Below, piece by piece: positions 19,175 through 46,071 of a stretch of DNA of 64,000 nucleotides (position 1 is the stretch's first letter; each line of letters starts with the position of its first letter). Source of the DNA: Rhodothermales bacterium (GTDB lineage: Bacteria; Bacteroidota; Rhodothermia; Rhodothermales; VXPQ01). The translations under genes were made by a program, and so were the position numbers. The notes under the pieces were generated by a model that searched no databases, was not told where the DNA came from, and saw nothing but the letters and a program-made list of their open reading frames with translations. Where the stretch lies: contig JAJDWX010000040.1 of assembly GCA_022825385.1 (NCBI GenBank), forward strand, positions 40,487-104,486. The letters run 5' to 3'.

Positions 19175-20317
19175 TCAGGCCGTGACTTTTTTCTTGTTCC
19201 GCGCCGATGCGCGCCGATACGCTTCCACTTCCTTGAAAAACCGATCGAACAGGTACTGGCTGTCGTGCGGTCCCGGCGACGCTTCCGGATGATACTGCAC
19301 GGAAAAGGCCGCGCGATCCCTGAAACGCAGCCCTTCCACCGTCTGATCGTTCAAATTCCGATGCGTCACCTCGGCGACTTTCGCCCCGATGGATTCTTCC
19401 TGGACTGCGAACCCGTGGTTCTGCGTCGTGACCTCCACATGGCCGGTGCCCAGATTCTGCACCGGCTGGTTGGCCCCCCGGTGTCCGACGAACATTTTGT
19501 ACACCTTGCACCCGGAAGCCAGCGCCATAAGTTGATGCCCCAGACAGATTCCGAACAGCGGGATATCCGTTCGGAACGCTTCCCGAACCGTTTCTATCGC
19601 CTGGGGCATGGCCCGCGGATCGCCTGGGCCGTTCGAAAAAAAGAGCCCGTCCGGCTCCCAGGCAAACACCTGTTCGAGCGACGCGGAAGCGGGGAAAAGG
19701 CGCACGGCGCAGCCCTGCGCCTCGAACGACCGAAGGATGTTGCGCTTCACGCCGTAGTCGAACACCGCAATGCGCGGGCCGTCTCCCGCATGCCAATCCT
19801 CCGCCGCGTCCATCGTCACCCGGGACGCCAGTTCGAGCCCATCCATGGAAGGCCAGTTGCGCGCTTTCTCGATCAGCCGGTCGTCGTCCAGGTCCACCGA
19901 CGAAATCACGGCGTTCATAACGCCCTGCGTACGGATATGGCGCACCAGCCGACGGGTATCCACGCCGCTGACGCCCACCAATTCGTGCCGCTTCATAAAA
20001 TGGTCCAGCGACTCGTCCGCCTGCAAGTTGGAGTACTCCGCGGCGAACTGACGCACCACGAAGCCCGCCACCATGGGCGCGACCGCCTCCATATCGATAT
20101 CCATGGCCCCGTAGTTCCCGATGTGCGGGTAGGTCATCATCATGATCTGCCCGTGATAGGACGGATCCGTCATGATCTCCTGATACCCTGTCATGCTGGT
20201 GTTAAAACAGAGTTCGCCGCCCGTTTCGCCCGGATGGCCAATGGCGTATCCCTTCACGACGATTCCGTCTGCCAGGGCCAGCTTGCACGGAGAACCATTC
20301 GTCGACGTTTGTTGCAT
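19175..20317 (-). CDS. carA: Carbamoyl phosphate synthase small subunit (glutaminase)
   Basis: CarA supplies ammonia from glutamine to CarB. The 380-residue protein has the N-terminal CPSase domain ([17 protein letters not shown] near residue 45) and a class I glutamine amidotransferase domain with the nucleophile in [11 protein letters not shown] (near residue 265) and the His/Glu pair in [14 protein letters not shown] choose ATG 20317 over the track's TTG at 20332, because GGAG sits about 10 bases upstream of it. That GGAG lies inside an 8-codon Arg-rich frame (see 20323-20349). Confidence 0.95.
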
Positions 20318-35507: not shown

Positions 35508-36488
35508 CTACAGCGTTCCCAGGCAATAATCGCCCCCGTTCCGCTGTATGTAATCGAAGAACGGGGTGTCGGCGACGGCCTTCCCGGAGGGATATAAAGC
35601 CATCTCTTCATTGTATCCCCCTACCACCAGGCCATATCCGTTCTCCACGTTCGAAAGCGTACCTGGATAAACCCGTACGCGTTCGTCCGACAGATCGGCT
35701 CCCGGCGGATCCCAATCAGAACTCCCGATCGTGACCTCCAATCGCAGGCCCAGCAAGGCCAAACCATCCTGAGCCGGATTCTCGAATTCGAGCATCCATT
35801 CCTCATAATGATCCTCATAATAATATGATCGCATGGTTTCATAAAAAATATTTAAATCGACAGTGAATTCCCATCCCTTATCTATTTTTTCCTCGGCGCC
35901 CTGGTGTGAAATAGTATACTGCTTACGCGGAGTATTACATACCGTATCGGGATTATCTTTATGGTAAAATGATACATCGTATACGGTTTCTATTCGTGGC
36001 AGAACGAAAGACATATCATCAAGGCCCAAAACACGCACATACAGGTCCCTGGTACTCGAGTCGTAATTTTCAACGCGTACTTCTCCAGGAACCTCCACAT
36101 TTACGACGCTCCGCTCCCCGTCGGAGCGCACCACTTCCATACGATGACGACTCCCGTACCCGGGCGTAAAATCGGCCCAATAGATATGATCCAGTTGCCC
36201 CGTAGCGTTGGCCGTCACCGAATCTCGCCATACATAGGCCTTGCCGCTACCCAAGTCGGTTGAGGTAACGACCGCATCAAGCGCCTCTCCCGTTTCCGGG
36301 AAAAGCAGGTCTTCCACAGAGCCCACAAGCACCGTCTGCATAGGCAGTCGGGGATTAAAAACACCGTACAGCGAAAACGGTTCATCTACCTCGGTCGGTC
36401 CCGCCACATCCTCCTCGCATCCGACAAGGAACACAAAAAGCAACAAAGACCCGGCGTAAAAGAAATTTCGTACATTCAGAGACTGCAT
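35508..36488 (-). CDS. Lipoprotein of unknown function (DUF4249-like)
   Basis: The 326-residue protein has a lipoprotein signal with lipobox LVGC (cysteine near residue 24), followed by an acidic EEDVAGPTEVDEPF. The rest looks beta-rich with a bacterial-Ig-like start (FSLYGVFNPRLPMQTVLVG). This order, lipobox, short acidic spacer, then a YGVFNP-like strand, is reminiscent of DUF4249 lipoproteins that accompany TonB-dependent receptors in Bacteroidota, but no receptor is nearby. Base composition is less GC-rich than the core genes. A secreted-protein gene lies 25 bases upstream on the same strand. Confidence 0.65.
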   Translation of the reverse strand: MQSLNVRNFFYAGSLLLFVFLVGCEEDVAGPTEVDEPFSLYGVFNPRLPMQTVLVGSVEDLLFPETGEALDAVVTSTDLGSGKAYVWRDSVTANATGQLDHIYWADFTPGYGSRHRMEVVRSDGERSVVNVEVPGEVRVENYDSSTRDLYVRVLGLDDMSFVLPRIETVYDVSFYHKDNPDTVCNTPRKQYTISHQGAEEKIDKGWEFTVDLNIFYETMRSYYYEDHYEEWMLEFENPAQDGLALLGLRLEVTIGSSDWDPPGADLSDERVRVYPGTLSNVENGYGLVVGGYNEEMALYPSGKAVADTPFFDYIQRNGGDYCLGTL

Positions 36489-36513
36489 TATATTGCCGTT
36501 CCGAAGACTTGGC

Positions 36514-36954
36514 CTACCAGGGTGCAGTATCAAGTTCGGCAACACCTCCACCTATGCCGCCTGAATATTTAATTCCTATAATCACGATTCTACTGGTAGG
36601 TGCAACGGTATTGATCCTAGACCCGCCTGAACAACCACGATAAATGCATGTTGCTCTTGCAATTTCCTTTCGAGACCCATTATACTGCACCTCATAAACA
36701 TAGAAATGAGTAGGGTTGGGGCCTCCTACGGGAGCACTAAAGCCCACCTGAAAATGTGTACATGCTCCTACGACACCAGTGTCGGAGGTTCGAACTACAT
36801 AGCCAGATCCTGTATGGATCTGCACAGTGGCGGACGGGCAATACCCCGCGCCTGCCGCATTACCGGATTCGGGGGAAACGTCCGCAGGCGCATGCGAGCC
36901 AAGCAGGAAGGGAAGCGTCAGGAAAATGGCCAGCGGGCCGATCAAGCGTTTCAT
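36514..36954 (-). CDS. Small exported cysteine-containing protein of unknown function
   Basis: I start at MKRLIG (36954), which gives a clear signal peptide (about residues 1-23). The mature part of about 120 residues has four cysteines, enough for two disulfides, and many Gly/Ser/Thr/Val residues that suggest beta structure. I find no known domain. It is the first gene of a two-gene unit with the lipoprotein. The track start at 37053 adds a non-homologous leader and is rejected. Confidence 0.55.
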   Translation of the reverse strand: MKRLIGPLAIFLTLPFLLGSHAPADVSPESGNAAGAGYCPSATVQIHTGSGYVVRTSDTGVVGACTHFQVGFSAPVGGPNPTHFYVYEVQYNGSRKEIARATCIYRGCSGGSRINTVAPTSRIVIIGIKYSGGIGGGVAELDTAPW

Positions 36955-37220
36955 GGTGCATGTCGGTTTGGTTACACAAGACGTAAAGCGCATGGGCGAA
37001 CCCATGTTTGAATCATACATTCTCTCAGAACGAAACGCAAGGGCTTCATTCATTTTTCAACGAAAAATCTCGCCTCGACTTCATGAAGGCCCCTGCCTTC
37101 GCATGGTTTCTGTCCGTATCTTGTCCAATGCGCCGCGGACGCAAAAGGCGACATTAGCGCGAAACGGATCGCCCGCGGCGCAAGGACCCGCTTCCCGTAC
37201 TGCTCATCCTTTCCTTCCAC

Positions 37221-38102
37221 ATGACGCAAACCCGAATCATAGACGGACGCGCCGTAGCGCAAGCCGTTCGCGAAGAAGTCCGCGAAGAAGTCTCGACCTG
37301 GATTGCGCAAGGGCGCCCGGCCCCGCGCCTTGCGGTCGTACTGGTTGGAAACCATCCGGCCTCGGCCTCCTACGTACGCGGCAAACGCAAAGCTTCCGCC
37401 GAAGCAGGCGTGGAAAGCGAAACGCTGGTCCGCGACGAAAACATATCCGAAGAGGCGCTGCTGGACCTCGTCCGTACGCTCAACGCGGACCAGGAAATCG
37501 ACGGAATACTCGTGCAATTGCCGCTCCCGGAGCATATTTCCGAAAAACGAATCATCCACGCCATCGATCCGGCAAAAGACGTGGACGGATTTCATCCCGA
37601 AAACGTAGGGCGCCTGCTGATCGGAGACCCGGCGTTCGTGTCCGCCACGCCGGCGGGGATCATGGAATTGCTTTCCCGCGCCGGAATCGCGCTGCGCGGC
37701 CAGCGGGCCGTCGTCGTGGGGCGGTCGAATATCGTGGGGAAACCCCTCGCGGCCTTGCTCATGCAACGCGGAACGGACGCCACGGTGACGGTCTGCCACA
37801 GCCGGACGCAGCGCATCGAAGAAATTACGCGAGAAGCCGATATCCTGGTGGCCGCCATAGGCCGGGCCGGATTCGTTACCCGAAATATGGTGAAGCCCGG
37901 CGCCGCGGTCATCGACGTGGGGATCAACCGGGTGGAGGACCCGACGCGGGCGCGAGGCTATCGGCTGGCGGGGGACGTGGATTTCGACGACGTACTGGAG
38001 CAGGCCGGACATATCACGCCCGTGCCTGGCGGCGTAGGCCCCATGACGATCGCCATGTTGCTTCGGAACACGCTGGCCGCCGCGCAGGGAGCGTACCGAT
38101 AG
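37221..38102 (+). CDS. folD: Methylenetetrahydrofolate dehydrogenase / methenyl-THF cyclohydrolase
   Basis: FolD interconverts methylene-, methenyl- and formyl-tetrahydrofolate. The 293-residue protein has the catalytic lysine segment ASYVRGKRKASAEAG (near residue 52), GILVQLPLPEHISE (near residue 97), the NADP-binding VVVGRSNIVGKPLAALL (near residue 165) and the C-terminal TPVPGGVGPMTIAMLLRNT. Length and motifs are normal. It is transcribed away from the exported-protein gene, with a 266-base divergent region. Confidence 0.96.
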   Translation: MTQTRIIDGRAVAQAVREEVREEVSTWIAQGRPAPRLAVVLVGNHPASASYVRGKRKASAEAGVESETLVRDENISEEALLDLVRTLNADQEIDGILVQLPLPEHISEKRIIHAIDPAKDVDGFHPENVGRLLIGDPAFVSATPAGIMELLSRAGIALRGQRAVVVGRSNIVGKPLAALLMQRGTDATVTVCHSRTQRIEEITREADILVAAIGRAGFVTRNMVKPGAAVIDVGINRVEDPTRARGYRLAGDVDFDDVLEQAGHITPVPGGVGPMTIAMLLRNTLAAAQGAYR

Positions 38103-38200
38103 AAACCATAAGGCAACATTCCGTATCTATAATGTCTGCTATGGAAACGTTCTGCCGTTGACCGGCGTACCAGCCAAAATCACCATACGCTCACGCCCCC

Positions 38201-38299
38201 ATGCATGCATCCCGCGCCGATAGAAACCGTTTCGCCGTCTCCCCGCTGCGTCTGCGACGAGGAGACCTTCCTTGCATGTGGAGAAGCGCTTCGCCATGA
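38201..38299 (+). CDS. Putative arginine leader peptide (attenuator)
   Basis: The 32-codon frame from ATG 38201 to TGA 38297 has seven arginine codons (residues 5, 8, 10, 17, 19, 20, 28), three of them in the run RLRR. Three are CGA or CGA-CGA and two are AGA, which look rare in this GC-rich genome. Residues 29-30 are encoded by AGCGCT (38285-38290). That stretch can pair with AGCGCT (38336-38341) in the 5' arm of the downstream terminator, giving an antiterminator that a stalled ribosome would leave free. Translation has not been shown, and a second frame (ATG 38205) overlaps. Confidence 0.6.
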   Translation: MHASRADRNRFAVSPLRLRRGDLPCMWRSASP

Positions 38300-38335
38300 C
38301 AACCGCAGGGGCTGCCCTGGCCAAATTGCTCGTAC

Positions 38336-38367
38336 AGCGCTGATTCACCCGGGTCAGCGCTTTTTTT
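38336..38367 (+). terminator. Attenuator terminator before argG
   Basis: The perfect 8-bp stem AGCGCTGA / TCAGCGCT with a 10-base loop is followed by seven Ts. It ends 58 bases before the argG ATG, so unless it is opened it should stop transcription before the arginine operon. Confidence 0.88.
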
Positions 38368-38424
38368 GTACCGCGCCCCCTCCCTGCGCCACACCCTCTT
38401 TTTTCTTTTTACTGCATTGACGCC

Positions 38425-39660
38425 ATGGCCATAGTCCTTGCTTTCAGCGGCGGCCTCGATACGTCTTTTTGCGTACCGTATCTCGCCGAAACCTTCGACG
38501 AACCGGTCTATACGGTTACGGTCAATACCGGCGGCCTTTCCGAAAAAGACGCGCAAGCCGTCGAAGCGCGCGCCCGGACGCTGGGCGCCGCCCGGCACAT
38601 CCTCGTCGACGCCCGGAAAACCCTCTACGACGATCACCTGAGCTACCTGATCAAGGGAAATGTGCTGCGCGGCGGCGTATATCCGCTGTGCGTAGGGCCG
38701 GAACGGGTAACCCAGGCCCGCATGGTGGTGCAAGCGGCGCGAGAAACAGGGGCGCGGGCCATCGCCCACGGATCCACCGGCGCCGGAAACGATCAGGTCC
38801 GCTTCGACGTCGCCACGCGCCTCCTGGCGGAAGATCTGGATATTTTGACCCCCATCCGGTCCCTCGGGCTGGATCGCGAGCAAACGACCGCTTTTTTGCA
38901 GGAACGCGGCTTCGAGGTGCCCCGCAAAACCACGGTGTGGTCCATCAACCGGGGCCTGTGGGGCGCCACGATCGGGGGAGGCGAAACGCTGACCCCCGCC
39001 GACCCGCTGCCGGAAGAAGGATGGGCGGACACGGTAACGCCTTCGCAGGCGCCCGATGCCGGGCAGGAATGGGTTATCGGGTTCGAGGCGGGCCTGCCCG
39101 TCTCGCTGAACGGATCGCCCATGGATCCGGTCGCGCTCGTTGAAACGCTCAATGCCGAAGGGGCGGCGCACGGCGTGGGAAGAGGCATGCACACGGGCGA
39201 TACGATCCTTGGCGTCAAGGGGCGCGTGGCCTTCGAGGCGCCTGCGCCGGCCCTCCTGATTCCGGCCCACCGGGAACTGGAAAAAATCGTGCTGACCAGC
39301 CGCCAGCGCTTCCAGAAAGACCATCTGGCGGATTATTATGGACAGATGCTGCACGAAGGACACTATTTCGATCCAGTCATGCGAGACATAGAGGCCCTCG
39401 TCGATTCGTCGCAACAACGCGTTACCGGCGCGGTGCGGGCGAAGGCGCGTCAGGGATGCGTCGAAATACGGGGATGCGAAAGCCCCTGGTCCATGTTCGA
39501 TCTGGACGTGGCGGTCTATGGCGAAACGAACGCTTTGTGGGACGGACGGGACGCCGAAGGATTTACGCAGATTTACGGCGTACAGGCGCTCTTGGCGCGC
39601 AGGGCGCGGCGGCAAGCGGAAAACGCGGCTGAAAAACCTTCCGAGGAACGACATGAATAG
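38425..39660 (+). CDS. argG: Argininosuccinate synthase
   Basis: ArgG condenses citrulline and aspartate using ATP. The 411-residue protein has the N-type ATP pyrophosphatase loop LAFSGGLDTSF at the start, the AHGSTGAGNDQVRFD segment (near residue 115) and the citrulline-binding region KTTVWSINRGLWGATIGGG. It is the first gene of the seven-gene arginine operon and sits right behind the attenuator. The stop overlaps the argC start by 8 bases. A less common detail is that argG leads the operon instead of argC or argJ. Confidence 0.95.
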   Translation: MAIVLAFSGGLDTSFCVPYLAETFDEPVYTVTVNTGGLSEKDAQAVEARARTLGAARHILVDARKTLYDDHLSYLIKGNVLRGGVYPLCVGPERVTQARMVVQAARETGARAIAHGSTGAGNDQVRFDVATRLLAEDLDILTPIRSLGLDREQTTAFLQERGFEVPRKTTVWSINRGLWGATIGGGETLTPADPLPEEGWADTVTPSQAPDAGQEWVIGFEAGLPVSLNGSPMDPVALVETLNAEGAAHGVGRGMHTGDTILGVKGRVAFEAPAPALLIPAHRELEKIVLTSRQRFQKDHLADYYGQMLHEGHYFDPVMRDIEALVDSSQQRVTGAVRAKARQGCVEIRGCESPWSMFDLDVAVYGETNALWDGRDAEGFTQIYGVQALLARRARRQAENAAEKPSEERHE

Positions 39661-40681
39661 CCAGCGCCACAGGACCGCGCTGCTTCACGGCGCAGGATAT
39701 ACGGGCGGCGAACTGATCCGCCTGCTCCTTGCCCATCCTGCCGTCCGACTGCATGCGGTCACCAGCCGGTCCTGCGCCGGAGAGCCGCTGTGGCGCGCGC
39801 ACCCGCGTCTGCGCGGCCAGACGGACCTGGTCTTCAGCGATCCGGACGCGTTCGACGCCGCCGAGGCGGACAGCATCTTCATTGCGGCGGAACATGGCCA
39901 AAGCGCCCGCCTCGCCGCCGCCTTGCTCGCGGACGGCTTCGACGGCATACTTATCGACCTGAGCGCGGATTTTCGGCTCGACCGGGCGGGCCTCTACGAA
40001 ACCTGGTACGATTTCGAACATCCGGCGCCCGACCTGCTCTCGTCCTTCGCCTATGGCCTCCCGGAGCTTTGCGCCCCGTATCCGCCCGGGACAAGGCGCA
40101 TTGCGAATCCGGGGTGCTTCGCCACGGGCGTCACGCTGGCGCTATGGCCGGCGGCGCGGCATATGGACCGAATGGACGCTTTCGTAACGGCCTGGACCGG
40201 CGCTTCGGGTTCGGGCGCGCGGCCCAAAGCCACGACCCACTTTCCAACCCGGGAGGGGAACGCGCGGGCCTACAAGGCGCTATGTCATCAGCATCTCCCC
40301 GAAATACAGCAAATGCTGGGCCCTGGCGCCACCATTCGCTTCGTGCCCGTTTCCGGCCCCTGGAGCCGAGGCATCTGGGGCGTGGCGGATATTCCGCTCC
40401 CGGCGGGCGTCGCCGCAGCCGACGTAGACGCATGGTATGCGGAAGCCTATGCGGACTGCCCGCTCGTCCGGCGCTATCCGGGCGCGCTTCCGGAACTTCG
40501 GTTCGCCGCGCATTCGCCGTTCTGCGACATCGGGTGGATGGTGCGGGACGGACGCCTGCTGGTCGGATTCGCAGAAGACAACCTGATCAAGGGCGCCTCG
40601 GGACAAGCCATCCAGAACCTGAACCTGCTCATTGGCTTGCCGGAAGCGACGGGCCTTTTGCCTCGTCCGCAAGCATCCTGA
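39653..40681 (+). CDS. argC: N-acyl-gamma-glutamyl-phosphate reductase
   Basis: ArgC reduces the N-acylglutamyl phosphate to the semialdehyde. The 342-residue protein has the Rossmann loop LLHGAGYTGGELIRLLLAHP, the catalytic cysteine in IANPGCFATG (near residue 145) and SGARPKATTHFP near residue 195. The ATG at 39653 overlaps the end of argG by 8 bases. If the pathway uses succinylated intermediates, this enzyme would act on the succinyl form. Confidence 0.94.
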   Translation: MNSQRHRTALLHGAGYTGGELIRLLLAHPAVRLHAVTSRSCAGEPLWRAHPRLRGQTDLVFSDPDAFDAAEADSIFIAAEHGQSARLAAALLADGFDGILIDLSADFRLDRAGLYETWYDFEHPAPDLLSSFAYGLPELCAPYPPGTRRIANPGCFATGVTLALWPAARHMDRMDAFVTAWTGASGSGARPKATTHFPTREGNARAYKALCHQHLPEIQQMLGPGATIRFVPVSGPWSRGIWGVADIPLPAGVAAADVDAWYAEAYADCPLVRRYPGALPELRFAAHSPFCDIGWMVRDGRLLVGFAEDNLIKGASGQAIQNLNLLIGLPEATGLLPRPQAS

Positions 40682-40693
40682 CCCACTCGGAAT

Positions 40694-41875
40694 ATGACGA
40701 CCCAGGACGTTATCGCGCTCGAACAGCGCTATCAGATTCCCACGTACGCTCATATGCCTCTCGCGCTTGCGCGGGGGGAAGGAAGCTACGTATGGGACCT
40801 TGACGGGCGCAAATATCTGGACCTGTACGGCGGGCACTGCGTGGCGCTCCTCGGCCATAGTCCGCCCCGCGTGACGGAAGCCATCCGGAAGCAAGCCGGA
40901 CGCCTCCTGTTTTATTCGAACACCGTCTACAACGATACGCGGGCGCGGGCGCTCGAACGACTCGGGCAGCTGGCCCCCGAAGGACTCCGGCATATATTCT
41001 TTTGCAATTCGGGCGCCGAGGCCAACGAAACGGCCATGAAACTGGCGCGCAAGCATACCGGGCGGTCCCGCATCCTCGCGATGGAAGGCGGCTTCCACGG
41101 GCGCACGCTTGGCTGCCTGGCCGCCACCTGGCAAGAAAAATACCGGGCGCCGTATCGGCACGCGCTGCCCGCAACCACCTTCGTTCCGTTTGGGGACGCC
41201 GCCGCGGCAGAGGCCGCCTTCGCCGAGCATGGCGATATCGCAGGGGTGATCCTCGAACCGATTCAGAGCATGGCCGGCATGGTCGAGGCGGACCCGTCGT
41301 ATTACCGGGCGTTGCGCGCGCTCTGCGACCGGCACGGGGCCCTGCTCGTCTTCGACGAAGTGCAAACGGGCGTGGGACGCACGGGGACCTTTTCCATCAG
41401 CGAGCGCTACGGGATGCGCCCGGATTGCATTTCGCTGGCGAAAAGCCTGGGGGCGGGCGTACCCGCAGGCGCCGTGCTCTTGTCCGACGAACTGGCCTCC
41501 TCGGTGAAGCCCGGAGACCAGGGGACTACGTTTGGCGGCGGCATGATCGCCATGGCCGCCGTAGAAGCCACGCTGCAAACCCTTGTGGAAGAAAACCTCA
41601 TGCCGCGCGCAGCCCGTCTGTTCGAGCATATACGGGACGGCCTGGCGTCGCTGGACTGCGCGGTGCGCGGGCGAGGCGGCCTTCTTGGCATCGTCCTGGA
41701 TCGGCCCTCCGCGCCCGTTCGCTCGGCGCTGCTGGCGCAGGGCGTCATTACGGGCGGGGCGGACGATGCGAACGTGATCCGGCTGATGCCCCCGATCAAC
41801 ACCCCTTTCGACGCGCTGGACAGGTTTTGCGAAGCGCTTTCCTCGGCCTTGAAAGAACAGCATAATTCATTATGA
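40694..41875 (+). CDS. argD: N-acylornithine aminotransferase
   Basis: This class III PLP aminotransferase makes N-acetyl- or N-succinylornithine. The 393-residue protein has FCNSGAEANETAMKLARKHTG (near residue 100, quoted in part), the PLP aspartate in LLVFDEVQTGVGRTG (near residue 220) and the lysine in ISLAKSLGAGVPAGAVL (near residue 250). It lies 12 bases after argC and overlaps the carbamoyltransferase gene by 4 bases. Confidence 0.93.
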   Translation: MTTQDVIALEQRYQIPTYAHMPLALARGEGSYVWDLDGRKYLDLYGGHCVALLGHSPPRVTEAIRKQAGRLLFYSNTVYNDTRARALERLGQLAPEGLRHIFFCNSGAEANETAMKLARKHTGRSRILAMEGGFHGRTLGCLAATWQEKYRAPYRHALPATTFVPFGDAAAAEAAFAEHGDIAGVILEPIQSMAGMVEADPSYYRALRALCDRHGALLVFDEVQTGVGRTGTFSISERYGMRPDCISLAKSLGAGVPAGAVLLSDELASSVKPGDQGTTFGGGMIAMAAVEATLQTLVEENLMPRAARLFEHIRDGLASLDCAVRGRGGLLGIVLDRPSAPVRSALLAQGVITGGADDANVIRLMPPINTPFDALDRFCEALSSALKEQHNSL

Positions 41876-42864
41876 GACACCTGATCGACTGGCAATCGCT
41901 CAGCCGCGCCGTATGGAACGCGGCGGTGGAGCGGGCCTTGCATTATTACGAAAACGCCGGGGTATGGACCGACGCGGCGCGGGGGCGCAGCATCGGACTC
42001 ATGTTTTTCAACCCTTCGCTGCGTACGCGAACGTCCATGGAACTGGCGGCGGCGCAGCTGGGCGCGTATTCGACCGTGCTCAGCCCGGGACAAGACACCT
42101 GGCGTTTCGCTTTCAAGGAGGGCGGCGTTATGGATGGCGCCGAGGCCGAACATATCCGGGAAGCCATCGGGGTGCTGTCGAAGTATTACGACGCGCTGGG
42201 CGTACGGCTTTTCGCCTCGCTCAAGAGTTACAACAAGGACCGGGACGAGCGGCTTATCCGCACCATTGCGGCGGCCTCGTCGGTGCCGGTCGTGAACCTC
42301 GAATCCGCATTCTACCATCCCTGCCAGGCCCTGGCCGACGCCGCGGTCATTCGGCGGCGCCTGGGCGATCCGCGCGGAAAGAAGTTCGTGCTGGCATGGA
42401 CGTATCATCCCAGAGCCCTCCCCATGGCCGTACCCAATTCCGCCGTGCTGATGGCGGCCCGCTCCGGCATGCAGGTAACCGTCGTACGACCGGACGAGTA
42501 TGCGCTGGATTACGGAATCATGGAAAAGGCCCGGACCTATGGCGCGCAGGTCGAGGAAACGGATAACCGCGAGCAAGCCTTCGACGGAGCGGACGTCGTG
42601 TACGCCAAGGCATGGAGCGGACAGATGGTCTATTCCGATCCCGAACACGAAGCGGCGCGGCGGGAAAACCTGCGGGACTGGTGCGTCACGACGGAATGGA
42701 TGCAGAAAACGCGGGAGGCGCGCTTCATGCATTGTTTGCCCGTACGGCGCAACGTGGTCGTGGAAGACGACGTGCTGGACGGGCCGGGCGCCATTCACCT
42801 CGAACAGGCCGAATTTCGCTTGCACGCGCAAAAAGCGATCCTCGAATACGCCTGGGGACTATAG
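41872..42864 (+). CDS. argF': N-succinyl- or N-acetylornithine carbamoyltransferase (ArgF')
   Basis: The 330-residue protein has the carbamoyl phosphate loop NPSLRTRTSMEL (near residue 49), HPCQALADA (near 146), and the Bacteroidota/Xanthomonas-type HPRALPMAVPNS (near 183) and HCLPVRRNVVVEDD, which separate this family from normal ArgF. At the residue known to set substrate (Glu92 in Xanthomonas acetylornithine enzyme, Pro90 in the Bacteroides fragilis succinylornithine enzyme) the aligned segment MDGAEAEHI has Ala. Published substitution of that Glu by Ala, Pro, Ser or Val favours succinylornithine, so I lean to N-succinylornithine. Confidence 0.9.
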   Translation: MRHLIDWQSLSRAVWNAAVERALHYYENAGVWTDAARGRSIGLMFFNPSLRTRTSMELAAAQLGAYSTVLSPGQDTWRFAFKEGGVMDGAEAEHIREAIGVLSKYYDALGVRLFASLKSYNKDRDERLIRTIAAASSVPVVNLESAFYHPCQALADAAVIRRRLGDPRGKKFVLAWTYHPRALPMAVPNSAVLMAARSGMQVTVVRPDEYALDYGIMEKARTYGAQVEETDNREQAFDGADVVYAKAWSGQMVYSDPEHEAARRENLRDWCVTTEWMQKTREARFMHCLPVRRNVVVEDDVLDGPGAIHLEQAEFRLHAQKAILEYAWGL

Positions 42865-42878
42865 CATGCCCTGACGAA

Positions 42879-43664
42879 ATGCCAGCAAGGACCACCGTGA
42901 TCAAAACGGGCGGCGCATCCGTCGAGCGAACGGCGTCTCTCGATGCGCTTTGGACCGCCGTGGCCGAACGGACGGGCGGCGAGCGCGTCGTGGTCGTGCA
43001 TGGCGGCGGCGCGCGAGCCACCGAAGTCGCCGAACGGCTCGGTCATGCCCCGCGCATGGTGCATGGCCGCCGGGTCACCACGGACATCGACCTGCGCATC
43101 GTGCAATGGACCCTGCGCGGCGAACTGAACGGACGCCTTGCGGCCCATGCGGCGCGGCGCGGCGTACGGGCCGTGGGACTGTCCGGAGCCGACGGGCCCA
43201 CGGTATACGTTACGAAAAGGCCTCCCTGGAACGTGGACGGGGAAACGATCGGCTTCGGATGGGTCGGCGATATCGCATCGGTCGATACGGACCTGCTGGA
43301 CCTCCTGCTGGATCGGGGGTACGTGCCGGTCGTCGCCCCGATCGGCGTGGACCGCGCAGGACAATTGTACAACATAAACGCGGACACCTTTTCGTGCGCG
43401 CTGGCGCGCGCCCTGGAGGCGGACGAATACCTGCTGGTCACGGAGGTCGGGGGCATTCGCCGCAAGGCGGACGACCCGGAGTCCCTTTTGCCCTCCCTCG
43501 ACGCCGAACAACATGCCCGGGGCGTACGGGAAGGGTGGATCGCGAACGGCATGCGCGTAAAAATCGACGTGGGATTCGCCGCGCTGAAAGCCGGGATTCC
43601 GCGCGTATTCGTCGTGTCTCCCGACGGCGTCCGGGCGCCCTCGACAGGCACGCAAATAACGTAA
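42879..43664 (+). CDS. argB: N-acylglutamate kinase
   Basis: ArgB phosphorylates N-acetyl- or N-succinylglutamate. The 261-residue amino acid kinase has VIKTGGASVERT at the N-terminus, VVVVHGGGARATEVAERLG (near residue 38), a YNINADTFSCALARALEADE segment (near residue 165) and VTEVGGIRRKADDPES. Feedback inhibition by arginine needs an N-terminal helix that is absent here, as in arginine-insensitive forms. That would leave the attenuator as the main visible arginine control. The ATG at 42879 gives the correct N-terminus. Confidence 0.92.
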   Translation: MPARTTVIKTGGASVERTASLDALWTAVAERTGGERVVVVHGGGARATEVAERLGHAPRMVHGRRVTTDIDLRIVQWTLRGELNGRLAAHAARRGVRAVGLSGADGPTVYVTKRPPWNVDGETIGFGWVGDIASVDTDLLDLLLDRGYVPVVAPIGVDRAGQLYNINADTFSCALARALEADEYLLVTEVGGIRRKADDPESLLPSLDAEQHARGVREGWIANGMRVKIDVGFAALKAGIPRVFVVSPDGVRAPSTGTQIT

Positions 43665-43675
43665 CCCCTGACGGT

Positions 43676-44740
43676 ATGCCGCATGAAGAAGTCATAGCGC
43701 TTTTGAAATCCCTTGTGCGCATCCCCTCCCTGAGCGGCGAGGAGCAAAACATCGCCGGATTCGTGGAGCGGTATGTGGCGCAGCGCGGAATCGAGGCGGG
43801 GCGCATGGACAACAATGTGTTCTTCGGCCTGGGCGACGGCGAAGACGTCTTGTTGCTGAACACGCATCTGGACACCGTGCCCCCGTCGGAGCGCCATCCG
43901 CACGGCGCATTCGACGCCTGCGAGGCGGACGGCTGCGTGTACGGACGCGGAAGCGTGGACGCGAAAGCCTCCGTCGCCGCCATGACCACCGCATTGCTTT
44001 CGCTGGCCGCCGAGGGCTTCCGGCCTTCCGGGCGCGTTATCGTAGCCCTGACCGCCTGCGAGGAAACGGGGGGCGAATACAACGGACTCCAGGCGTTGCG
44101 TCCGCATTTGCCCCCGATAACGGCGGCGCTCGTGGGCGAACCCACAGACCTTGCGCCGTGCATCGCCCAAAAAGGCCTGCTCGTTCTGCGCGTGGAAGCG
44201 CAGGGCGCAACGGCCCATGCTGCACGGGCGCATCTTGGAAAAAACGCCATCGAAATCGCGGCGAGAGACATTCGGCGCGCCGCAGAGATGACTTTCGAGC
44301 GGGAAGACCCTTTTCTCGGGCGCCCTACGGTAACCGTAACCACCGTAACGGGAGGGTCCGCCCGCAACGTGGTGCCGGAGCATTGCGCGTTCACGCTCGA
44401 CATTCGCTCGACGCCCGCCTGGACGCACCGGGAACTGATCGACCGGGTTCGCGATACGCTGGAATCGGAGGTGCTCGTGCATAGCGAACGGATCGCGCCC
44501 GTCGCGACGGACCCGAGCGAACGCATCGCGCAGGCATGCTTCCGCGCCCTGCCGGACGCCAAACCGTTCGGCTCCCCCACCGCGTCGGACTGGATATTTC
44601 TGGCCGACGTCCCCACGGTCAAGATAGGGCCGGGATCAAGCGCGTTATCCCATACTCCCGAAGAGCGTATCCCGGTCGCCGAAGCCAGGCGAGCCGTGGA
44701 TGCGTATCGTTCCATTATCAAAGCGTACTTCGAATCATGA
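43676..44740 (+). CDS. argE: M20 N-acyl-citrulline/ornithine deacylase
   Basis: The 354-residue metallopeptidase of the M20 (ArgE/DapE) family has the zinc histidine in NTHLDTVPPS (near residue 64), the bridging aspartate in GRGSVDAKASVAA (near 97), the catalytic glutamates in TACEETGGEYNG (near 126) and a late SDWIFLADVPTVKIGPG. In operons with an acyl-ornithine carbamoyltransferase the substrate is N-acetyl- or N-succinylcitrulline, so I expect this to free citrulline for ArgG. It overlaps argH in ATGA. Confidence 0.9.
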   Translation: MPHEEVIALLKSLVRIPSLSGEEQNIAGFVERYVAQRGIEAGRMDNNVFFGLGDGEDVLLLNTHLDTVPPSERHPHGAFDACEADGCVYGRGSVDAKASVAAMTTALLSLAAEGFRPSGRVIVALTACEETGGEYNGLQALRPHLPPITAALVGEPTDLAPCIAQKGLLVLRVEAQGATAHAARAHLGKNAIEIAARDIRRAAEMTFEREDPFLGRPTVTVTTVTGGSARNVVPEHCAFTLDIRSTPAWTHRELIDRVRDTLESEVLVHSERIAPVATDPSERIAQACFRALPDAKPFGSPTASDWIFLADVPTVKIGPGSSALSHTPEERIPVAEARRAVDAYRSIIKAYFES

Positions 44741-46071
44741 CCCGCCCCTCGACCCCGCCGCTCTGGAAAAAATCGGACGCCTCCGCAACGATGGAGGACA
44801 AGGCGATGCGCTTCGCCGTAGGCGAGGACTATCGGTGGGATACGCTCCTTTTGCCCTACGACATACGGGCTACGCGGGCGCATGCCTGGGGCCTTGCGGA
44901 AATCGGCATCCTGAGCCGGACGGAATTCGAGGCGGTCGACAGGGCGCTGGATGCGCTGGCGGAGCAGGAACTGTCCGTCCGACCCGAAGACGAAGATTCC
45001 CATACGGTGATCGAGCATCGCCTGACGGAAGCGCTTGGCGACACAGGCAAAAAAATCCATGCGGGCCGCTCCCGGAACGATCAGGTGCTCGCTGCGCTGC
45101 GGTTGTATCTGCGGGACGCCCTGGCGGACGTCATGCGGCAAACCGCGGGGATGGCGCGCATCCTGTGCCGCCGGGGCAAGGAGTGGGAACAGTACCTGAT
45201 GCCCGGCTATACGCACATGCAACGGGCCATGCCGTCTACGGCGGGATTGTGGGCCATGGGCTACGCCGAACTGTTCGCCGTCGATATCGAGCGGCTGGGA
45301 GAGACCCTCGGACGGATCAACGTATCGCCCCTCGGATCGGCGGCGGGGTACGGCGTACCCGGGCTGGCGCTGCCGCGCAAGGAGGTGGCCCGGCGGCTCG
45401 GCTTCGACGGCGTACAGGAACATGTTACCGTCGTACAGCTGTCGCGCGGCAAACTCGAACTGGACGTAGCGCATGCGCTTGCGCAGATCGCCGGGACCTG
45501 CAACCGCCTCGCTTCGGACCTTGTGCTGTATCACACGGCGGAATTCGGTTTTCTGGAACCCGCCGACGCGTACGGCACGGGCAGTTCCATCATGCCGCAA
45601 AAACGGAACCCGGACATACCGGAGCTGGCGCGGGCCTCGTACCACCGCGTCCTGGCCGAAATGCACCTGCTGGCCTCCCTGCCCGCCAACCTGCCTTCTG
45701 GCTATCACAGGGACCTGCAGCTCGCCAAGGAAGCCGTCCTGCGCGCCGTGCATACGACGTCGAGCGTGGCGGACGCCATGACGGCGACGCTCCGAAACAT
45801 GCGCTTTGACCCGGCGCGCCTGGAGGAGGCGGTATCGCCCGACTTGTTCGCTACCGCCAGGGCTATTGACCTGACGCAAAAAGGCGCGCCCTTTCGGGAA
45901 GCGTATCGGCAAACCGCCGCCGAACTGGAAACGCTCCGGAAACCTTCCGCCGAGGAAGCCCTGTCGGCGTACCGGGTAGACGGATACCCCGGGCAATGCA
46001 GGCCCGAGCGCATCCTCGAACGCCTGAAATCGGCTTTGGGGGCGGTCGAGAAAGAGGAAGAATCGGCGTAG
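44737..46071 (+). CDS. argH: Argininosuccinate lyase
   Basis: ArgH splits argininosuccinate to arginine and fumarate. The 444-residue protein has the fumarase/aspartase superfamily motifs: EDEDSHTVIEHRLTEALG near residue 85, AGRSRNDQVLAALRLYLRD near residue 110, and the signature GSSIMPQKRNPD (near residue 285). Length is normal. It ends the seven-gene operon; the next gene is on the other strand. Confidence 0.95.
   Translation: MTRPSTPPLWKKSDASATMEDKAMRFAVGEDYRWDTLLLPYDIRATRAHAWGLAEIGILSRTEFEAVDRALDALAEQELSVRPEDEDSHTVIEHRLTEALGDTGKKIHAGRSRNDQVLAALRLYLRDALADVMRQTAGMARILCRRGKEWEQYLMPGYTHMQRAMPSTAGLWAMGYAELFAVDIERLGETLGRINVSPLGSAAGYGVPGLALPRKEVARRLGFDGVQEHVTVVQLSRGKLELDVAHALAQIAGTCNRLASDLVLYHTAEFGFLEPADAYGTGSSIMPQKRNPDIPELARASYHRVLAEMHLLASLPANLPSGYHRDLQLAKEAVLRAVHTTSSVADAMTATLRNMRFDPARLEEAVSPDLFATARAIDLTQKGAPFREAYRQTAAELETLRKPSAEEALSAYRVDGYPGQCRPERILERLKSALGAVEKEEESA

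Follow-up and report, generated by a model that had tools for sequence, protein, structure and literature searches.

Leader Peptides and the Control of Arginine Genes

Attenuators of the classical kind are known for His, Trp, Thr, Leu, Ile/Val, Phe and Cys. Where arginine is concerned, the short ORF preceding speF (orf34 in Salmonella, SpeFL in Escherichia coli) controls ornithine decarboxylase via Rho-dependent termination, sequestration of the ribosome binding site and RNase G (PMC6386406), while for carA in Pseudomonas aeruginosa, which has a leader peptide, attenuation is ascribed to pyrimidines and control by arginine to repression of transcription (PMC4997734). Leaderless attenuators with poly-cysteine frames are known in mycobacteria (Canestrari 2020, as cited in PMC13236596), and Firmicutes have arginine T-box leaders (as cited in PMC1262725). 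A survey of attenuators in Actinobacteria reported none for arginine (PMC1262725), and the survey of premature terminators published in 2010, which likewise has none for arginine operons, knew leader peptides from no phyla other than Proteobacteria and Actinobacteria, with Firmicutes as a new addition (PMC2965389). The passage on this subject in a study of a flavobacterial transcriptome presents clues for leader-peptide attenuation before amino acid operons, arginine not being named there (PMC9723704). In the open-access literature we found no arginine attenuator of a biosynthetic operon; an earlier prediction may exist.

Here we analyze the arginine operon in a stretch of 64,000 nucleotides (hereafter, the window) from an assembly of 3.0 Mb, the named relatives of its argG being those of Rhodothermales. 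Comparison of its upstream region with the genomes of the class indicates that a ribosome-mediated transcription attenuator sensing charged tRNA-Arg very probably controls this operon, and does so as a mechanism of the class; the evidence comes from the leader, its control codons, the terminator, the alternative pairings with their covariation and the absence of ArgR.

The Arginine Operon of the Window and Its Leader

The operon has the gene order argGCDF'BEH, and folD lies upstream of the leader on the same strand:

38425–39660, plus strand: argG, argininosuccinate synthase, first gene of the operon (TIGR00032, 312.7 bits vs. a cut-off of 268.2)
39653–40681, plus strand: argC, overlapping the end of argG (TIGR01850, 307.7 bits, above cut-off)
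40694–41875, plus strand: argD, acetylornithine transaminase family (best models under their curated cut-offs)
41872–42864, plus strand: argF', N-acetylornithine carbamoyltransferase (NF003384, 421.6 bits, above cut-off)
42867–43664, plus strand, approximate start: argB (TIGR00761, above cut-off)
43679–44740, plus strand, approximate start: deacylase of the argE/dapE family (TIGR01910, under the curated cut-off)
44815–46071, plus strand, approximate start: argH (TIGR00838, above cut-off)

The same window carries carA, for the small chain of carbamoyl-phosphate synthase, at 19904–20281 on the minus strand, with no Arg leader before it. The elements that we recognize upstream of argG are the following:

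38158–38163, plus strand: proposed -35 element TTGACC (TTGACA in four genomes of the same genus)
38181–38186, plus strand: proposed -10 element CACCAT, weak, placed by comparison 17 nt after the -35
38201–38299, plus strand: ORF of the leader peptide, ATG to TGA, 32 codons with 7 Arg, kept in 6 of 6 genomes of the genus
38237–38266, plus strand: hairpin GUCUCC...GGAGAC enclosing the Arg cluster, probably the pause hairpin
38249–38260, plus strand: Arg control codons R17-L-R19-R20, CGT CTG CGA CGA (RLRRG invariant in the genus)
38278–38290, plus strand: segment 2 (GUGGAGAAGCGCU), 5' strand of the antiterminator, invariant in the genus, with equivalents that co-vary between families
38336–38348, plus strand: segment 3 (AGCGCUGAUUCAC), partner of either segment 2 (antiterminator) or the 3' arm of the terminator
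38336–38361, plus strand: intrinsic terminator hairpin, 11 pairs, loop ACCC
38361–38367, plus strand: T run of the terminator

The frame of 32 codons with seven for Arg, claimed by an earlier note on this DNA, is indeed present; it translates as MHASRADRNRFAVSPLRLRRGDLPCMWRSASP and has Arg at codons 5, 8, 10, 17, 19, 20 and 28. The cluster RLRR with its CGA-CGA pair is also as described, whereas the AGA attributed to the cluster is not part of it, being the codon of positions 8 and 28. The ORF is presumably translated. Taken alone, this leader has no significant excess of Arg (cluster, p 0.33; total, p 0.074), and relatives were therefore compared. The six genomes of the genus, including that of the window, conserve RLRRG, segment 2 and the terminator.

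The perfect 8-bp terminator with a U-tract that had been proposed before argG turns out to have a longer stem, in which the eight perfect pairs are followed by U-G, U-G and C-G; the hairpin has a z of -2.5, shuffles of the region 38095–38430 give an expectation of 0.1 vs. the one found, and in vivo transcription would terminate near 38367. The hexamer AGCGCT occupies both positions given for it, 38285–38290 and 38336–38341, even if such a match is weak by itself because the hexamer is its own reverse complement. The antiterminator extends beyond what had been noted, as GUGGA at 38278–38282 pairs with UUCAC at 38344–38348, so that in full 38278–38282 and 38285–38290 pair with 38344–38348 and 38336–38341. 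When a ribosome occupies the Arg cluster and the 3' arm of the terminator is still unmade, this antiterminator is the best fold of the emerged RNA, at -25.6 kcal/mol. The whole leader of the window has folding energies no different from those that its composition would give; the high GC content of the DNA makes shuffle tests on single leaders weak, and between-family permutation was used in their place.

Neither segment 2 nor the terminator stem varies within the genus, and hence they carry no information on pairing. The hairpin GTCTCC/GGAGAC, which had been suggested as the pause hairpin, is supported at this level: among the six sequences available, a small number, 95.5% of cells are paired and two pairs have changed on both sides. 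It precedes segment 2 and therefore fits the role of pause hairpin better than that of the 1:2 competitor. The 1:2 hairpin is a feature of the class, and in this genus the hairpin of the Arg cluster itself lies outside segment 2.

Distribution of the Leader among Rhodothermales and Their Relatives

The argG gene was located in 52 of 60 near genomes and in 164 of 195 genomes of the class, and the upstream regions of 117 argG loci, sampled from 20 families, were read. A short ORF with an Arg run followed by an intrinsic terminator stands before argG, at a distance of 9–259 nt, in 73 of these loci; the question raised with the original observation, whether the Arg frame or the terminator would be missing from relatives, is thus answered by the presence of both in 18 of the 20 families. 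One further locus, L160, has the same pattern by eye and was missed by the script, while L168, with only a weak Arg run, was left out of the count. Arginine makes up 24% of the residues in the 73 leaders, where other amino acids seldom form runs, and 67 of the leaders have at least four Arg within eight codons. Most carry denser runs than the RLRR of the window, for example RRRRR (L014, L019), RRRLRRVRR (L156), RRRRIRRR (L169) and RRRRFRRR, and L007–L011 have RPIRPVRRPRRPR. The geometry of the leader is kept too, with mostly 24–69 nt from the last Arg codon to the stop and mostly 21–55 nt from the stop to the terminator.

The detector found no match before argG in 40 genomes from other classes of the phylum. 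Its background, estimated around argG of other organisms, was one spurious match in 0.76 Mb read on both strands (~1.5 Mb), and the other 76 named argG loci gave matches only in L100, a real one from Balneolales, and in L130, a spurious one lying 4 kb away.

No Arg leader was found before argG in two families, f15 (15 loci) and f18 (21 loci), and seven further loci without the device are scattered in other families; among these scattered loci argG follows another kind of gene in L018, L048, L049 and L135. Some of the loci lacking the leader have features of their own. In f15 (L026, L027, L028, L030, L044, L146, L149, L153 and L185), a conserved TGATCCAAGATT-N7-GCGT lies ~25–50 nt before argG. 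The f18 loci (L175–L191) have argG behind a gene for a GNAT-like acetyltransferase with the C-terminal motif CxSCPNYDI...CLCTGMLYDP, the gene order seen in other Bacteroidota, but with ArgR absent. A GGCGCTGATT hairpin resembling the terminator of the attenuator persists in L138 and L151, which have no Arg ORF.

Covariation of the Alternative Pairings

The 60 nt following the Arg run were paired with the 5' arm of their own terminator and with the arms of other families. The computed pairing of segment 2 with its own arm has -17.6 kcal/mol vs. -12.4 kcal/mol for foreign arms (family means), which corresponds to a between-family covariation for the 2:3 pairing with z -8.4 and p 5e-5, the lowest value that 20,000 permutations allow. 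The 1:2 pairing, in which the 36 nt leading up to the Arg run combine with the region after it, has z -6.8 and the same p of 5e-5, its promoter control giving z -1.5. No signal with the terminator arm was obtained for the control regions, namely the 36 nt before the Arg run, the promoter region and the Arg run itself. The alternation of 2:3 and 3:4 pairings proposed from the window alone is therefore supported by covariation between families, with null controls.

In nearly all families segment 2 ends before or at the stop codon, and it mostly starts 10–20 nt after the last Arg codon; with this placement, a ribosome held up at the Arg run would leave segment 2 exposed, and one at the stop codon would mask it. 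When a ribosome was modelled on the Arg run, folding gave the antiterminator in 72 of 73 leaders; when modelled at the stop codon, it gave the terminator in 73 of 73, a figure due in part to the model itself, since segment 2 is hidden by the footprint. At equilibrium, the finished transcript with a stalled ribosome favours the terminator in 54 of 73 leaders, so that formation of the antiterminator has to depend on kinetics, as it does in attenuators already known.

These results bear on the view that the hairpin is a mere terminator of upstream (folD) transcription, or an insulator, with an accidental Arg ORF in the window. The nonsignificant Arg content of the window leader and the position of folD on the same strand would agree with it; against it stand the conservation of the ORF and hairpin together in 18 families, the promoter that most loci have between the upstream gene and the leader, and the covariation of the terminator arm with the leader ORF. 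We give this view practically no credence, and continue with attenuation.

Predicted Promoters and the Start of the Leader

The promoter of the window leader would be formed by the -35 and -10 elements listed above, which are aligned with TTGACA-17-TATTAT in L003–L006 of the same genus; the -10 at this position is either TATTAT or TAACGT elsewhere in the genus, the latter in L002. A scan for consensus promoters found none in the window. A TATAAT at 38129–38134, without a good -35 and 66 nt before the leader ORF, is present only in the window and L002, in which it is possibly an alternative promoter.

Among 57 leaders of the class with a recognisable pair of -35 and -10 elements, 43 have their start codon 4–11 nt behind the -10 hexamer. 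The transcript would then start at the AUG or a few bases away, and most of these leaders appear to be leaderless. The genus of the window is an exception, with 41–46 nt from the -10 to the start codon in four genomes, while in the window and L002 the start codon lies 14 nt behind the weak -10 boxes.

Could the attenuator of the class be decaying in the genome of the window and its sister G001? The Arg run of the window is only RLRR, and the -10 is CACCAT here and TAACGT in L002 vs. TATTAT in four genomes of the genus, as expected from decay. Yet the window and L002 have the same segment 2, the same terminator arm and the same terminator while neighbouring bases differ, and RLRRG is kept, so that we hold such decay to be unlikely and a working attenuator to be the better account of the window.

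Codon Choice in the Arg Runs

The 73 leaders contain 591 Arg codons, of all six kinds. CGA accounts for 36% and CGT for 25% of these; in the argG genes that follow at these loci the shares are 5.4% and 9.0%. The preference may reflect slow or isoacceptor-specific decoding, or else the need for CGACG–CGUCG pairing.

The same preference could be invoked for an RNA- or DNA-binding protein acting on a CGACG-rich motif, with the Arg codons as a by-product, since the 61% share of CGA plus CGT in leaders (14% in argG) produces recurrent CGACG strings. The runs of low-GC families, however, are AGG CGC CGT or CGC CGT CGT, without CGACG (L171, L173, L169); moreover, the frame, its start and a stop at fixed distance are conserved, and the covariation of 1:2 and 2:3 pairings fits control by a ribosome, not a binding site. 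Such a protein is thus a most improbable cause of the pattern.

Another alternative retains the ribosome and changes the signal: like TnaC, SpeFL or the fungal arginine attenuator peptide, the leader would be an arrest peptide, binding free arginine (or a related metabolite) inside the ribosome tunnel instead of sensing tRNA charging. It has in its favour a short Arg-containing peptide preceding arginine genes, the fact that any stall gives the same RNA switch, and the conservation of the peptide RPIRPVRRPRRPRGGGTG within family f3. Between families, however, only the Arg run and its distance from segment 2 are common, and the use of all six Arg codons is likewise at odds with this mechanism. 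Stalling by free arginine would also have the wrong sign, turning the operon on at high arginine. We consider an arrest peptide very unlikely, and charged tRNA-Arg remains our preferred signal.

ArgR and the Leaders of Other Operons

Neither the genome of the window nor 194 of the 195 genomes of the class contain PF02863, the C-terminal domain of ArgR; of 14 control genomes, 8 gave a match in the same search, including Bacteroides. The sole exception, G039, has ArgR directly before a divergent argG, where the leader is absent. This ArgR lies at G039:C181:2713-4093 (L049, L132), with an argG of 48% identity, on a contig that may derive from horizontal transfer or be a contaminant. Families f15 and f18 and a few other genomes have neither the attenuator nor ArgR.

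In evolutionary terms, arginine control has evidently moved from the ArgR repressor of other Bacteroidota to a leader read by the ribosome across most of the class. A more far-reaching reading, which we put forward tentatively and think somewhat less probable than its contrary, is that attenuation is both the original and the principal arginine control in the class, in the place of ArgR, operating on a leaderless transcript in which the preference for CGA and CGT serves to read the charging of a single isoacceptor, tRNA-Arg(ICG) with its inosine, at the codon that it decodes most slowly.

This type of attenuation seems to be at home in the clade, since more than half of 30 relatives have Trp-run leaders with terminators upstream of trpE, probably trp attenuators of Rhodothermales. 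The leader ORFs of L260–L265, L269, L279, L281, L284 and L285 contain WWW or WWLW, with terminators ~110–155 nt before the match to the trpE domain; the trpE of the window genome (L273) has no Trp leader and lies directly behind another gene. No Arg leader was found before carA in 30 relatives. Before hisG, His-run ORFs resembling leaders occur near hairpins in two loci only, L240 of G039 and L238 of G009 (THHHHHLM, HFHHHS), which are possible his attenuators of a few genomes.

Proposed Mechanism

In the scheme that we propose, RNA polymerase would transcribe the leader while a ribosome translates it. If Arg-tRNA were short, the ribosome would stall on the Arg codons and cover the preceding sequence, leaving segment 2, 10–20 nt downstream, free to pair with segment 3; the terminator would then not form, and argG with the downstream genes would be transcribed. 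If Arg-tRNA were plentiful, the ribosome would reach the stop codon close behind segment 2, which would be covered or, after release, paired back to segment 1, so that segment 3 would pair with segment 4 and transcription end near 38367. Termination would in this way respond to the supply of arginine. The logic of his and trp attenuation, which had been applied to arginine from the window alone, finds its support in the leader, the terminator and the 1:2, 2:3 and 3:4 pairings described above.

Comparison with Known Systems

We have found classical attenuation of the his/trp type with arginine specificity nowhere described. Its spread in the class offers a clean natural case of regulator replacement, and the 73 natural variants can be used to test design rules for attenuators; they also make it testable whether control codons are chosen by the sensitivity of isoacceptors.

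Among the systems introduced at the beginning, the T-box likewise senses the charging of tRNA-Arg in cis, but it binds the tRNA directly, without a leader peptide; a search of positions 36000–40000 against Rfam gave no match at E up to 5, and the locus does not qualify as a T-box. The carA gene of P. aeruginosa is similar in having a leader peptide before a gene that feeds arginine synthesis, while carA in the present clade is without such a leader. Like orf34/SpeFL of speF, the argG leaders have consecutive Arg codons in a short ORF; the speF leader senses arginine by ribosome pausing with refolding of the mRNA, and the argG leaders would do likewise. They differ from the speF leader, which has no intrinsic terminator, encodes a conserved peptide (DUF2618) and precedes a degradative gene; the SpeFL core HIRRT.HIMM was not found in the leader peptide of the window or in those of the class, and the downstream gene is argG. 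The poly-cysteine attenuators of mycobacteria, which are Actinobacteria, resemble the argG leaders as short leaderless ORFs in which the sensed amino acid, there cysteine, is repeated in succession.

The closest likeness in architecture is to leaders of the hisL and trpL type, which belong to the his, trp, thr, leu, ilv and phe operons, mainly of Proteobacteria. Both have a leader rich in the regulated amino acid, a stop codon near segment 2, the set of 1:2, 2:3 and 3:4 pairings, and an intrinsic terminator before the first gene; no homology of sequence is claimed. The argG leaders depart from that type in that most of them appear leaderless, and in their specificity for arginine, their place before an operon beginning with argG and their occurrence in a clade of Bacteroidota formed by Rhodothermales and Balneolales-like organisms.
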